From the NCBI GenBank assembly GCA_024689485.1, contig JAILDK010000012.1:1-59301 (forward strand): 59,301 nucleotides of DNA, read 5' to 3'. A program made the position numbers and the translations under genes. Numbering within the stretch: the stretch's first letter is position 1; the number at the start of each line of letters is the position of its first letter. Origin of the DNA: Fibrobacter sp. (GTDB taxonomy: Bacteria; Fibrobacterota; Fibrobacteria; Fibrobacterales; Fibrobacteraceae). Below the pieces are notes generated by a model that worked only from the letters and a program-made list of their open reading frames with translations, was not told where the DNA came from and did not search any database. Positions 46,379 to 49,761 of this stretch are shown in pieces.

Positions 46379-46789
46379 TTATTTCGCCTGCGGATTCTCT
46401 TTTTGGTAACAGCGCGAGCAGTAACCGAAGAGGCAAGATTCCTGCTGGTTTACGTAAAAGTCGCATTCCTTGAGAATCGACTTTTTAATTTTTTGCAGAG
46501 CGTCTCCTTCGAGGTGAAAGAACTTGCCGCACTTTCTGCAGATCAGGTGAATCTTGTTTTGGCAGTCGCCGGGGCCGATGTAGCGGTAGCAGATTTCCTT
46601 GTTTTCGTCGGTACCAAAAGATTGGATGTAGCCGTTCTTTTCCATCAGCTGCAGATTGCGGTAGATGGTGCTGAGGGAAGAATTGGAAAGTTCCTGGGCG
46701 AGTTCCGAAGCCTTGAAGATTTTGTCTTTCTTGTGCGCGATCAGTTCGGCGAGTTCTGCGCGAGCTTTTGTTTTGTAACCAGTGGTCAT
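46379..46789 (-). CDS. Fur family regulator, probably zinc-responsive (Zur-like)
   Basis: A 136-residue Fur-type winged-helix protein: recognition helix in SNSSLSTIYRNLQLME, structural zinc cysteines CRKC (84-87) and CSRC (124-127), and the metal-site IHLICRKCGKFFHLE. The ribosome binding site GAGGG precedes ATG 46789. It is divergent from a His-rich membrane protein, a His-rich lipoprotein and a TonB receptor, which suggests Zur; Fur or PerR specificity is not excluded by sequence. Confidence 0.85.
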   Translation of the reverse strand: MTTGYKTKARAELAELIAHKKDKIFKASELAQELSNSSLSTIYRNLQLMEKNGYIQSFGTDENKEICYRYIGPGDCQNKIHLICRKCGKFFHLEGDALQKIKKSILKECDFYVNQQESCLFGYCSRCYQKENPQAK

Positions 46790-46838
46790 ATTCCCTCATT
46801 CAAAACGTTTCTATTAAAATAAAAAATTCAACAGCGCT

Positions 46839-46941
46839 TTGAAATAGGGAACTGCAAGCGAAATATAATTTGGGAACTGTTTGCAAATTCATCCTTGCAA
46901 AATTCCGACTAAAATTGTAAATTTTGCGAGTGATTCGCAAA
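46839..46941. promoter_or_regulatory. Promoter and inverted repeats of the putative zinc-uptake locus
   Basis: TTGAAA (46839-46844) and TATAAT (46864-46869), 19 bases apart, could be a plus-strand promoter. Two inverted repeats follow: TTTGCAA-N8-TTGCAAA (46880-46901) and TTTGCGA-N5-TCGCAAA (46923-46941). Both share the half-site TTTGC(A/G)A and are placed where a Fur/Zur repressor would block transcription of the downstream genes. The second overlaps the proposed start of the His-rich gene. Confidence 0.55.
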
Positions 46942-47214
46942 TTCAACCTCTTTCTCGTCGTATTTCTGGTTGCTGGGCTGCTTGCCATATCTCAGCATCA
47001 CCACGATGATTTAGAGCATCACGACGATTGCGCTATATGCCAGGTCCTTGATTGCGGTTTTGAAGCGGTCGAACCTTTAATTGTATCTCTCTTTATTGGC
47101 TTAGCGTGGATTCTTCCGCGAATCCAGAAACGGTTCGTTTCTTATCCTAGAATCGTCCTTCATTTTTCTCGGGCACCGCCGCAGTTTAAGCGATTTGAAA
47201 TTCAAAACGTTTAA
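46930..47214 (+). CDS. Histidine-rich membrane protein (DUF2946-like), 94 residues
   Basis: The N-terminal hydrophobic segment (FLVVFLVAGLLAIS) is followed by a metal-binding-looking stretch QHHHDDLEHHDDCAICQVLD (residues about 23-42), then a second hydrophobic segment (PLIVSLFIGLAWILP) and a basic tail. The pattern of a His/Asp/Cys cluster after a leader helix resembles DUF2946-type proteins found near metal transport genes. No Shine-Dalgarno is visible before GTG 46930 (or TTG 46924), so the start is uncertain. It is the first gene of the plus-strand cluster with the lipoprotein and the TonB receptor. Confidence 0.65.
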   Translation: MIRKFNLFLVVFLVAGLLAISQHHHDDLEHHDDCAICQVLDCGFEAVEPLIVSLFIGLAWILPRIQKRFVSYPRIVLHFSRAPPQFKRFEIQNV

Positions 47215-47300
47215 CTGAAATCTTTTACAAACAAATTCACCTATCGGAAAGGACTCTAGGAAAGTCCTTGTGTCCGAACTTTAAATAAAGAGAAGAGAAA

Positions 47301-47792
47301 ATGAAAAAAATTTGGATGATCGCTTTCGCCGCATTGGCCTTCTATGCATGCAGCAGCAACAGTGCTAGCTCGGATCAGGAAGAACATTTTGAAGCAGACG
47401 GTTGGAACCTTTATTGGCCGGATTGGACTCTCGCTTACAGCGTTTTCCAGGGCAAGATTGACAGCACTCTCGAAACCATGAGTGTGAATGCAAACTGCTT
47501 GAGCGAACACATCAACATCAAGTTCCTCGACGAAAACAAGGAACAGATCAGCGGCCCGACCGATGAAGAACATTCCCTCGGCTGGGTGGTGGCAGACACT
47601 TCCATTTTGGACATCGAATGGGAAGGCGGCTGGGGCTTCCATCTGCACGGCCTTCAGGAAGGCGAAACGACCCTTCAGTTGCAGGTCAAGCACCACGATC
47701 ATGCGGACGTGAAGACTCCGGAAATCAAGATCATTGTGGATAAGAAGCTCGCTGCAGAGGATTGCCCGTTCCAGGAAGATGAAGAAGAATAA
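47301..47792 (+). CDS. His-rich lipoprotein of the putative zinc-uptake locus
   Basis: A 163-residue lipoprotein: signal MKKIWMIAFAALAFYAC with lipobox FYAC (C17). The mature protein is acidic and shows a single beta-sandwich-like domain with two histidine clusters (HLHG and KHHDHADVK), plausible metal ligands. The C-terminus is acidic (EEDEEE type). The ribosome binding site AAGAGAAGAGAAA precedes ATG 47301. It overlaps the start of the TonB receptor by 14 bases, indicating translational coupling. It may bind zinc or another metal at the cell surface and pass it to the receptor. Confidence 0.72.
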   Translation: MKKIWMIAFAALAFYACSSNSASSDQEEHFEADGWNLYWPDWTLAYSVFQGKIDSTLETMSVNANCLSEHINIKFLDENKEQISGPTDEEHSLGWVVADTSILDIEWEGGWGFHLHGLQEGETTLQLQVKHHDHADVKTPEIKIIVDKKLAAEDCPFQEDEEE

Positions 47793-49761
47793 TCGCTTTT
47801 TTTCAGCGATGGTGAAGAGCCTCCTTTTTTTAGGAGGCTCTTTTTCCGTGCTTCCCGCTGAAGAAATCATTTTGGATTTAGGAAGCAGTACCGTCCAAGC
47901 GGAAGCGGCCAAAGAATCCCGCTCCGAAACGCTTCGCGCCGATGACGCTTTGCAAAATATCGATTTGGACGAAGAAAAGGCTTCGACGATTGCGGAAACC
48001 TTAAAAAATCAGCCGAATATGGCGATCCGTTCCATGGGACCGGCTCCCGCTCGCCCGGTGGCAAAGGGCCTTTCCGGAAATCATGTGACGGTTGTCGAAG
48101 ATGGCTCTGTCGGCGGAGATCTGAGTGCGACTTCTCCCGACCATGCGATTGCAAGCGAAGCGCTGACGCTGCAAAAGATTCGCATTCTGCACGGGCCTCG
48201 CGTTTTGCTGTACACCTATTCGCAGGCAGGCGGTGTCATTCAAATGGACCGCTCCGAAATTCCGTTTGAAGACGATTCGTTGCACGGCTCGATTTGGGCT
48301 TATGCGGAAAGCGGTCAGCCGGGTTATGCGAATGCGGTGGAATTGAACGTTCCTGTTTGGAAGGGAGCGATCCATGCTGAAATTTCTTCGCGGAAAGCGG
48401 ATGATTTAGAGACGCCGCGTGGAGAATTGAAAAATACGGATCTGCTGAATGAAGGCGGCTTTGTCGCAGGAGCCTTGAAGTTTGGAAACTGGAGCCTTGG
48501 AAGTTCGTTCCGCTGGTTTTTGACGGATTACGGGATTCCGGGAGGCTTTATCGGCGGGCATCCGAACGGCGTCGATATTGAACTTTCGAAGTATGATTTT
48601 TCGACGGTGGCGAAATATTCCCCAAGTGATCGGCAGGCGGATTCTTTGCAGATCCGATTCCGCGCGAACCGTTACCATCATTACGAATACGAAGCCAAGG
48701 ATTACGTGGGCGCGGAATTTGCCTCGAACGAAGAAGAAGTCCGCATCGACAAAGCCTTTGGCCATGTCGGGAATTTTTTTGACATTCACACGGGTGCAGA
48801 ACTGCACACGCGGCGGCTCGAAATGGGAGGCTACGTTTTTACACCGCCCACGAATGAATATGACGGAGCCGCCTTTGCAAGCGCATCCACGCGCATTTTT
48901 AACCGTACCGAACTTTCGTTTTCGGGAAGGCTCGGAGGCGCGTCCTTTACACCGAAAAAGAGTGTCGTTGCCAAGGATGAAGATATTTGCGACCGAAAGT
49001 TCTTGCTGTACGCCGTGGACGTGGAACTTTTACAGCCGATCGGTTCGGGAAAGTTCTTGATTGCAAACGTTTACCGCACCACGCGGGCCCCTTCGATCGA
49101 AGAACTTTACAACCAAGGGCCCCATCTTGCCGCATACACATACGAAAAGGGCGACAAAGATCTTGATGCGGAAAGCGGCTACGGCGGGGAAGTTGAATTC
49201 AAGGCTTACACGCTCGACATGGAGGTTTCTGCAAGCGCATACGGAACCTGGTTTGACAATTACCTCGCGCCGCGTGCGACGGGAGACACGAACTGGTCCC
49301 AGCTTTTGCCGATTTATCAAGTGCAGGGCGACGCGGCGCTTCTTTTTGGCGGTAGCGTTTCGGTCAAATGGAATCCGGAAAAGGGCCTTTATGGAGAAGG
49401 CTCGGCGAGTTACGTTCGCGGCTATTACCAGAATGAAGACTGGGGCGATATGCCGCAGATTCCGCCGTTCAAATTCTACGGTGAAGTCGGCTACCGAATG
49501 CTCGGCGTCAAGGTTGGCACGTTTGGAACTTACCTCGCAAAACAATCCCATGTGGACAAGTTTGAAACGGAAACGCCTCAGTCGTTTTGCTGGGGAGCGC
49601 TTCTCGAATTCAAATGGAAGTGGGAACGTTCCGAATATGCCTTGATTTTACGCGGCGAAAACCTGCTCGACGCAGAAATCGAAAATCACCTTTCGAGGCT
49701 CAAATCGGTGATGCCCGAAAAGGGGCGAAGCTTTAGCGGACTTTTGAAGATTGCGTTCTAG
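47779..49761 (+). CDS. TonB-dependent outer-membrane receptor, probably metal
   Basis: A 660-residue receptor with a signal peptide (MKKNNRFFSAMVKSLLFLGG), a plug domain (ALTLQKIRILHGPRVLLYTY is near the usual IeVlrGPas motif) and a C-terminal barrel whose last strand ends in KGRSFSGLLKIAF, a terminal Phe typical of outer-membrane proteins. The start ATG 47779 has AGGAAG upstream. Its cargo is not shown by motifs; the linked His-rich proteins and Fur-type regulator suggest zinc. No TonB or ExbBD genes are in the window. Its stop shares CTAG with the stop of convergent ygiQ. Confidence 0.85.
   Translation: MKKNNRFFSAMVKSLLFLGGSFSVLPAEEIILDLGSSTVQAEAAKESRSETLRADDALQNIDLDEEKASTIAETLKNQPNMAIRSMGPAPARPVAKGLSGNHVTVVEDGSVGGDLSATSPDHAIASEALTLQKIRILHGPRVLLYTYSQAGGVIQMDRSEIPFEDDSLHGSIWAYAESGQPGYANAVELNVPVWKGAIHAEISSRKADDLETPRGELKNTDLLNEGGFVAGALKFGNWSLGSSFRWFLTDYGIPGGFIGGHPNGVDIELSKYDFSTVAKYSPSDRQADSLQIRFRANRYHHYEYEAKDYVGAEFASNEEEVRIDKAFGHVGNFFDIHTGAELHTRRLEMGGYVFTPPTNEYDGAAFASASTRIFNRTELSFSGRLGGASFTPKKSVVAKDEDICDRKFLLYAVDVELLQPIGSGKFLIANVYRTTRAPSIEELYNQGPHLAAYTYEKGDKDLDAESGYGGEVEFKAYTLDMEVSASAYGTWFDNYLAPRATGDTNWSQLLPIYQVQGDAALLFGGSVSVKWNPEKGLYGEGSASYVRGYYQNEDWGDMPQIPPFKFYGEVGYRMLGVKVGTFGTYLAKQSHVDKFETETPQSFCWGALLEFKWKWERSEYALILRGENLLDAEIENHLSRLKSVMPEKGRSFSGLLKIAF

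Follow-up and report, generated by a model that had tools for sequence, protein, structure and literature searches.

What does the system encoded at positions 46379-49761 of a 59,301-nucleotide contig from a gut-type Fibrobacteraceae genome, deposited as Fibrobacter sp. (JAILDK010000012.1, assembly GCA_024689485.1; the whole stretch is called the window below) take up, and how do its parts share the work? A Fur-family regulator gene stands there divergently from the genes of a small His-rich membrane protein, a His-rich lipoprotein and a TonB-dependent receptor. Judged by sequence comparison and structure prediction, the locus is probably an outer-membrane zinc-uptake module under the control of the zinc regulator Zur, when the explanation is taken as a whole with the role of the lipoprotein included. 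Zinc uptake under Zur, taken for itself, appears highly probable, and the chances that the lipoprotein is a receptor-bound zinc collector, on a membrane face left undecided, seem about even. The four genes lie where a preliminary description of this DNA had placed them, and the features are as follows.

46379-46789, minus strand: Fur-family regulator, the putative zinc regulator Zur (136 amino acids; Pfam FUR, PF01475, 58.7 bits)
46869-46887, no strand: operator 1, TTTGGGAACTGTTTGCAAA (1 mismatch to TTTGCRA-N5-TYGCAAA)
46895-46923, plus strand: possible promoter TTGCAA-17-TAAATT (weak, found by eye, and not flagged by the promoter scan)
46923-46941, no strand: operator 2, TTTGCGAGTGATTCGCAAA (perfect match to the 7-5-7 pattern; overlaps the start codon of the small His-rich gene)
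46930-47214, plus strand: small His-rich membrane protein (GTG start, 94 amino acids; 96 amino acids if started at TTG 46924)
47301-47792, plus strand: His-rich lipoprotein (163 amino acids; predicted immunoglobulin (Ig)-like beta sandwich; seven invariant His)
47779-49761, plus strand: ZnuD-like TonB-dependent receptor (660 amino acids; ATG at 47779, stop ending at 49761)
46813-49755, no strand: block of both operators and the genes of the His protein, lipoprotein and receptor, cleanly missing in a relative whose flanks are about 80-95% identical

The operator is one of the ties to zinc. Both inverted repeats between the divergent genes are real, as had been claimed, and each is a 19-base-pair (bp) palindrome of two 7-bp arms around a 5-bp spacer (7-5-7; consensus TTTGCRAATNATTYGCAAA). 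Operator 2 reads TTTGCGA-GTGAT-TCGCAAA, while the other repeat, once given as an 8-bp-spaced TTTGCAA...TTGCAAA, was re-read as TTTGGGA-ACTGT-TTGCAAA (operator 1), because the 7-5-7 form recurs at other zinc genes. The two copies are 54 bp apart, within a 32-nucleotide direct repeat of 72% identity. In 2000 dinucleotide shuffles of positions 46790-46950, two sites (≤1 mismatch) occurred in none and one site in 4. Arm pairs that were perfect in the 7-5-7 spacing, whatever their sequence, appeared in 67 of the 2000, so that the motif convinces through its recurrence elsewhere.

That recurrence was found at other zinc genes of the same genome. Over 2.5 megabases, the pattern TTTGCRA-N5-TYGCAAA is matched perfectly at two places, namely in the window and 85 bp ahead of a COG0523 GTPase gene, the promoter of which carries an additional palindrome, TTTGAGAATCATTCTCAAA, with 2 mismatches. 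The COG0523 product is like the ZigA/ZNG1 group in having CobW and CobW_C domains and the zinc chaperone ZigA as its best NCBIfam model, and unlike ZigA itself in staying under the equivalog cut-off (297 of 600 bits). A pair of genes resembling the HigB/HigA toxin-antitoxin, named by sequence impression, separates metE from the COG0523 gene (L018, 3673-4282). A znuA-znuC-znuB operon is found on contig C13, apart from the window; its first gene is another small His-rich gene, the start of which is overlapped by an operator copy, TTTGCGAATGATTCTCATT, placed just as operator 2 is in the window. The ZnuA of this genome has a long His-rich loop, and the models that fit it best are the zinc models AdcA and AztC. 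In all the znu operons seen, znuB is followed by the gene of a conserved secreted protein with an ACCSQG motif and a weak resemblance to DUF1980/TIGR03943 (L068, 5023-5532; L052, 8782-9246). The preliminary description had proposed a zinc cargo and Zur control and had suggested looking for the repeat before other zinc genes; its presence upstream of the COG0523 gene and at znuACB strongly supports that proposal. The locus had also been called self-contained, which could not be upheld, because the inner-membrane ATP-binding cassette (ABC) part lies elsewhere in the genome.

When the extended consensus TTTGCRAATNATTYGCAAA was searched genome-wide with ≤3 mismatches, 25 places were found versus 5 for the reversed control, indicating that part of the weak matches are background. 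Inspection bore this out: the other matches with 1-3 mismatches were mostly intragenic or without zinc genes nearby and were dropped as Zur targets, examples being those near uvrA at C4:2733, inside a gene start at C116:1379 and at C122:23457, and most of the extra matches in Fibrobacter. The znu operator is letter-for-letter identical in the close relative G100 and differs by several changes in G101, where no Zur was found. With one case each, it is suggestive that the presence of Zur tracks the conservation of the znu operator.

The distribution of the cassette points in the same direction. The lipoprotein occurs in 34 further genomes, all of one genus, named Fibrobacter by the genome collection. 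In Fibrobacter, the three genes of the window (His protein, lipoprotein, receptor) form the end of a single long operon in the order [cobW] zur, small His gene, znuA, znuC, znuB, a DUF1980/TIGR03943-like gene (weak), His protein, lipoprotein, receptor, [cobW]; the His protein was detected in some but not all of these loci, and zur is missing from a number of them. The homologous loci are thus tied to ZnuABC and COG0523 and not to haem or cobalamin, and the ABC genes that are absent from the window share one operon with the cassette there. An operator with ≤3 mismatches precedes the first gene in 27 of the 30 Fibrobacter loci with upstream sequence (a few genomes being counted twice), the background rate being 1.9% of 370-bp segments with the true sites included. 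The palindromic box is accordingly common to several zinc genes, namely the window cassette, COG0523, znuACB and the Fibrobacter operon.

Lipoprotein and receptor were present in an identical set of 35 of the 111 Fibrobacteraceae genomes, and a receptor profile run over 168 genomes of the phylum found no genome beyond these 35. For the lipoprotein, the phylum search gave at most marginal fragments outside Fibrobacter and the window genome, and a scan of the genome collection, which was pattern-based and reaches close relatives, found it in Fibrobacter only. Many Fibrobacter carry Zur without the two proteins, which, together with the identical set of genomes, marks lipoprotein and receptor as a paired add-on module. 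In G100 (L188), the flanks align at 80-95% nucleotide identity by segment while the block 46813-49755 is missing, and zur directly adjoins the neighbouring YgiQ-type gene, without the cassette and both operators; either a gain in the window genome or a loss in G100 would account for this. Two Fibrobacter genomes hold the receptor gene in fragments only (G025, C2:137651-138884; G089, C19:64773-65272), one of them with a stop, as if by decay or misassembly.

The receptor itself resembles the zinc receptor ZnuD. Its best NCBIfam model is ZnuD (E 4.5e-37), and its sole match in the PDB is the ZnuD structure 4RDR. The zinc ligands of ZnuD are Asp99, His100, Glu340 and His499 (PMC4557270); three of the four were compared, as the HMMER alignment does not reach E340. 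With the PDB chain numbering taken as offset by 14, D121, H122 and H449 of the receptor align with D99, H100 and H499 and are invariant in 30 of 30 homologues. No His-led run of His/Asp/Glu/Gly, such as would correspond to the His/Asp-rich external loop 3 clusters of ZnuD, was found in any of the 30 receptors. The receptors are about 55% identical within their own group, and the predicted structure was too poor to use (predicted local distance difference test score, pLDDT, 54).

The regulator has a FUR domain with a winged helix and CxxC pairs, of which C84/C87 and C124/C127 are invariant. Its best relative in the PDB is the Zur of S. coelicolor (3MWM, 1.6e-10), with M. tuberculosis Zur (2O03) in the top four and PerR (2FE3) close, and it is 47-52% identical to the regulator heading the znu operon of Fibrobacter. 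The residues C76, H81 and H92 are conserved across the Fibrobacter clade, and not every one of them lines up with S. coelicolor Zur. The protein was filed as Zur because of its operator and its company.

The new part of the locus appears to be the lipoprotein, which by our searches represents a protein family without prior description, with Pfam, NCBIfam and the PDB giving no match. The end of its lipobox, A16-C17, is invariant, as are H29, H70, H91, H114, H131, H132 and H134, and many homologues carry a C-terminal tail rich in His, Asp and Glu. AlphaFold2, run with 22 sequences, predicted a beta sandwich (pLDDT 77.7; residues 1-28 unreliable). When this model was searched with Foldseek, the matches were Ig-like domains, Rib among them, with E values no better than 2e-4 and template-modelling scores (TM-scores) of about 0.4-0.6, values that indicate a fold class and not a relation. 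The stop codon of the lipoprotein gene (47790-47792) lies within the start region of the receptor gene, and the resulting 14-bp overlap makes the translational coupling claimed in the preliminary description plausible. That description had also taken the lipoprotein for a metal carrier; the invariant His residues, the His tails and the strict pairing with the receptor make this plausible at the level of an inference.

The small His-rich protein has the motif HHHDD-x4-H-x2-C-x2-C and scores 19.4 bits on DUF2946, under the Pfam gathering cut-off of 23.7; translated from the GTG start, it gave no DUF2946 match at E 0.001. In Fibrobacter its homologues take up the corresponding place in the operon. 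The znu genes are headed by small His-rich membrane proteins of a second family (L068, 2146-2460; L056, 6082-6348), so that, counting the one in the window, each zinc operon has a small His-rich protein of its own. These small proteins are without a described family. In both places the operator lies on the start codon of the small His-rich gene (window, 46923-46941; L068, 2149-2167) with -10-like sequences just 5' of it, an arrangement that would fit leaderless transcripts. The by-eye promoter candidate at 46895-46923 would possibly begin a transcript near the GTG at 46930, which would then be leaderless.

Several results weigh against a ZnuD- and Zur-based zinc system of this kind. The receptor reached only 128 bits on the NCBIfam ZnuD model and missed its cut-off of 950, for which reason it is called ZnuD-like. 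The regulator likewise missed the cut-off of the curated NCBIfam Zur equivalog, PRK11639 (25.9 bits versus 167), so that it belongs to the family at the level of the fold and not to the Zur subfamily of that model, which looks to be built on a narrow group; its metal-site residues agree with Zur in part only. The operator at znuACB is a weaker copy with 3 mismatches from the consensus, none of the operators was seen to have a zinc-free ribosomal-protein paralogue nearby, and the lipoprotein model is of moderate quality. Finally, this Zur is missing from about a dozen Fibrobacter genomes that have retained the cassette.

The Zur-less Fibrobacter genomes show a feature of their own, another Fur-family gene (about 26% identical) directly upstream of the COG0523 gene, as in L184 (4765-5190), L185 (4648-5064), L186, L187 and L191. 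The zinc operator in these genomes drifts to TTTGCGAATGATTCTCAAA or ATTGAGAATNATTCTCAAT. Zur has apparently been swapped for the other Fur-family regulator there.

For a zinc-uptake module under Zur, the parts would work together as follows. With ample zinc, Zn-loaded Zur would sit on the palindromes and keep zur and the cassette off; when zinc is short, the operators would be freed and the genes expressed. The lipoprotein, anchored beside the receptor, would collect Zn2+ via its histidines, and via the His/Asp tail where present, and would pass it to the receptor, which would import it with TonB energy. In the periplasm, ZnuA would take the zinc over and ZnuCB would carry it inward, and the COG0523 GTPase would deliver it to client proteins. 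The weakest steps are the collecting role of the lipoprotein and its side of the membrane. As the receptor is without the His-rich external loops of neisserial ZnuD, the lipoprotein may supply zinc gathering in trans, and a loop-less receptor next to an obligate His-bearing lipoprotein suggests a division of labour. We tentatively consider a two-component importer, in which a surface Ig-like His lipoprotein, as an obligate partner, captures zinc and a ZnuD-like receptor that has lost collecting loops of its own imports it.

Given equal, and equally tentative, weight is an arrangement in which the lipoprotein faces the periplasm and hands zinc from the receptor to ZnuA, as a chaperone like ZinT or AztD. 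Its His tails do recall periplasmic zinc carriers, and it shares one operon with znuA in Fibrobacter; yet in the window genome, where znuA lies on a different contig, the lipoprotein has stayed coupled to the receptor, and sister genomes that have the znu genes but no receptor have no lipoprotein either. It is rather unlikely that the receptor imports a zinc chelate, a zincophore or a zinc-bound peptide, which the lipoprotein would bind. TonB receptors for zinc chelates are known from Cnt/Zrm-type systems (PMC6103462), but the ion-binding residues of ZnuD are conserved in the receptor, and none of the operon genes was recognisable as one for metallophore synthesis.

Cargoes other than zinc fare worse. 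Haem uptake, by a haem receptor with an HmuY-like haem-binding lipoprotein under an iron or peroxide regulator, is very improbable. The receptor weakly matches the haem-receptor model TIGR01785, the regulator also resembles PerR/Fur models, and ZnuD itself had initially been mistaken for a haem receptor (PMC4557270); against this stand the linkage to ZnuACB and COG0523, the shared operator, ZnuD as the sole PDB match and the absence of haem-handling genes near the locus. Copper uptake by an OprC-like receptor with a DUF2946-type small protein, in favour of which stand the sub-threshold DUF2946 score and the receptor's weak match to TonB-copper, is more improbable still, given the same zinc-gene linkage and operator sharing and a score of 28.9 bits on the copper-receptor model versus 128 on ZnuD. 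Haem, copper and cobalamin were set aside as cargoes, with no linked genes and weaker family scores.

In kind, the whole zinc-uptake system is ZnuD plus ZnuABC under Zur, and known kinds account for its regulator, receptor, ABC transporter and GTPase, so that the claim of an undescribed locus holds for the gene set, which was not found in the literature searched on Fibrobacterota, and not for these components. The system shares with neisserial and Acinetobacter ZnuD (PMC4557270, PMC2895646) a TonB-dependent receptor with three of the four zinc ligands in place and, as far as we infer, the zinc-uptake role and Zur control; unlike ZnuD, the window receptor is distant (128 of 950 bits), lacks the His-rich loop clusters and has an obligate lipoprotein coupled upstream. 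As in Zur regulons with znuABC and COG0523 (PMC6103462; PMC2770081), a Fur-family regulator stands beside its targets, and palindromic boxes precede the genes for zinc import and for COG0523 proteins. It differs from them in its operator, TTTGCRAATNATTYGCAAA, in the very few targets known here, with no ribosomal-protein target found, and in occurring in a phylum for which we found no Zur site description.

The lipoprotein also invites comparison with ZepA, a Zur-controlled zinc exoprotein of cyanobacteria and others that is Ig-like with conserved His (PMC10957091). Like ZepA, the window lipoprotein is a predicted secreted Ig-like beta sandwich with conserved His in a zinc neighbourhood (Zur, COG0523, TonB receptors). 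In contrast, it has no PEP-CTERM, second domain or H-x2-9-H-F/Y-H motif and is tied to one receptor, so that it was not filed as ZepA; the likeness is one of behaviour and does not imply relatedness. In TbpA/TbpB and HmuR/HmuY, a lipoprotein is encoded beside, and paired with, a TonB receptor, the cargo being transferrin iron and haem, respectively. The window pair is alike in that its lipoprotein gene adjoins, and is paired with, the receptor gene, and differs in its probable cargo, in having no sequence relation that we found and in the single small Ig-like domain of its lipoprotein.

Fibrobacterota are major cellulose degraders of herbivore guts. For this phylum, our literature search turned up neither a zinc uptake route nor a Zur box in print, no work joining Fibrobacter, Zur and zinc uptake, and none joining ZnuD and Fibrobacteres, subscription papers being outside its scope. 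For the phylum, the locus offers a testable operator, together with a small regulon and a full outer-to-inner zinc path open to testing. The lipoprotein may represent a novel type of zinc-capture partner, and its family gains a specific, testable role that hints at how a receptor without His-rich loops gathers zinc. If the two-component importer is true, it would be a zinc counterpart of TbpB/TbpA or HmuY/HmuR, together with a new protein family.

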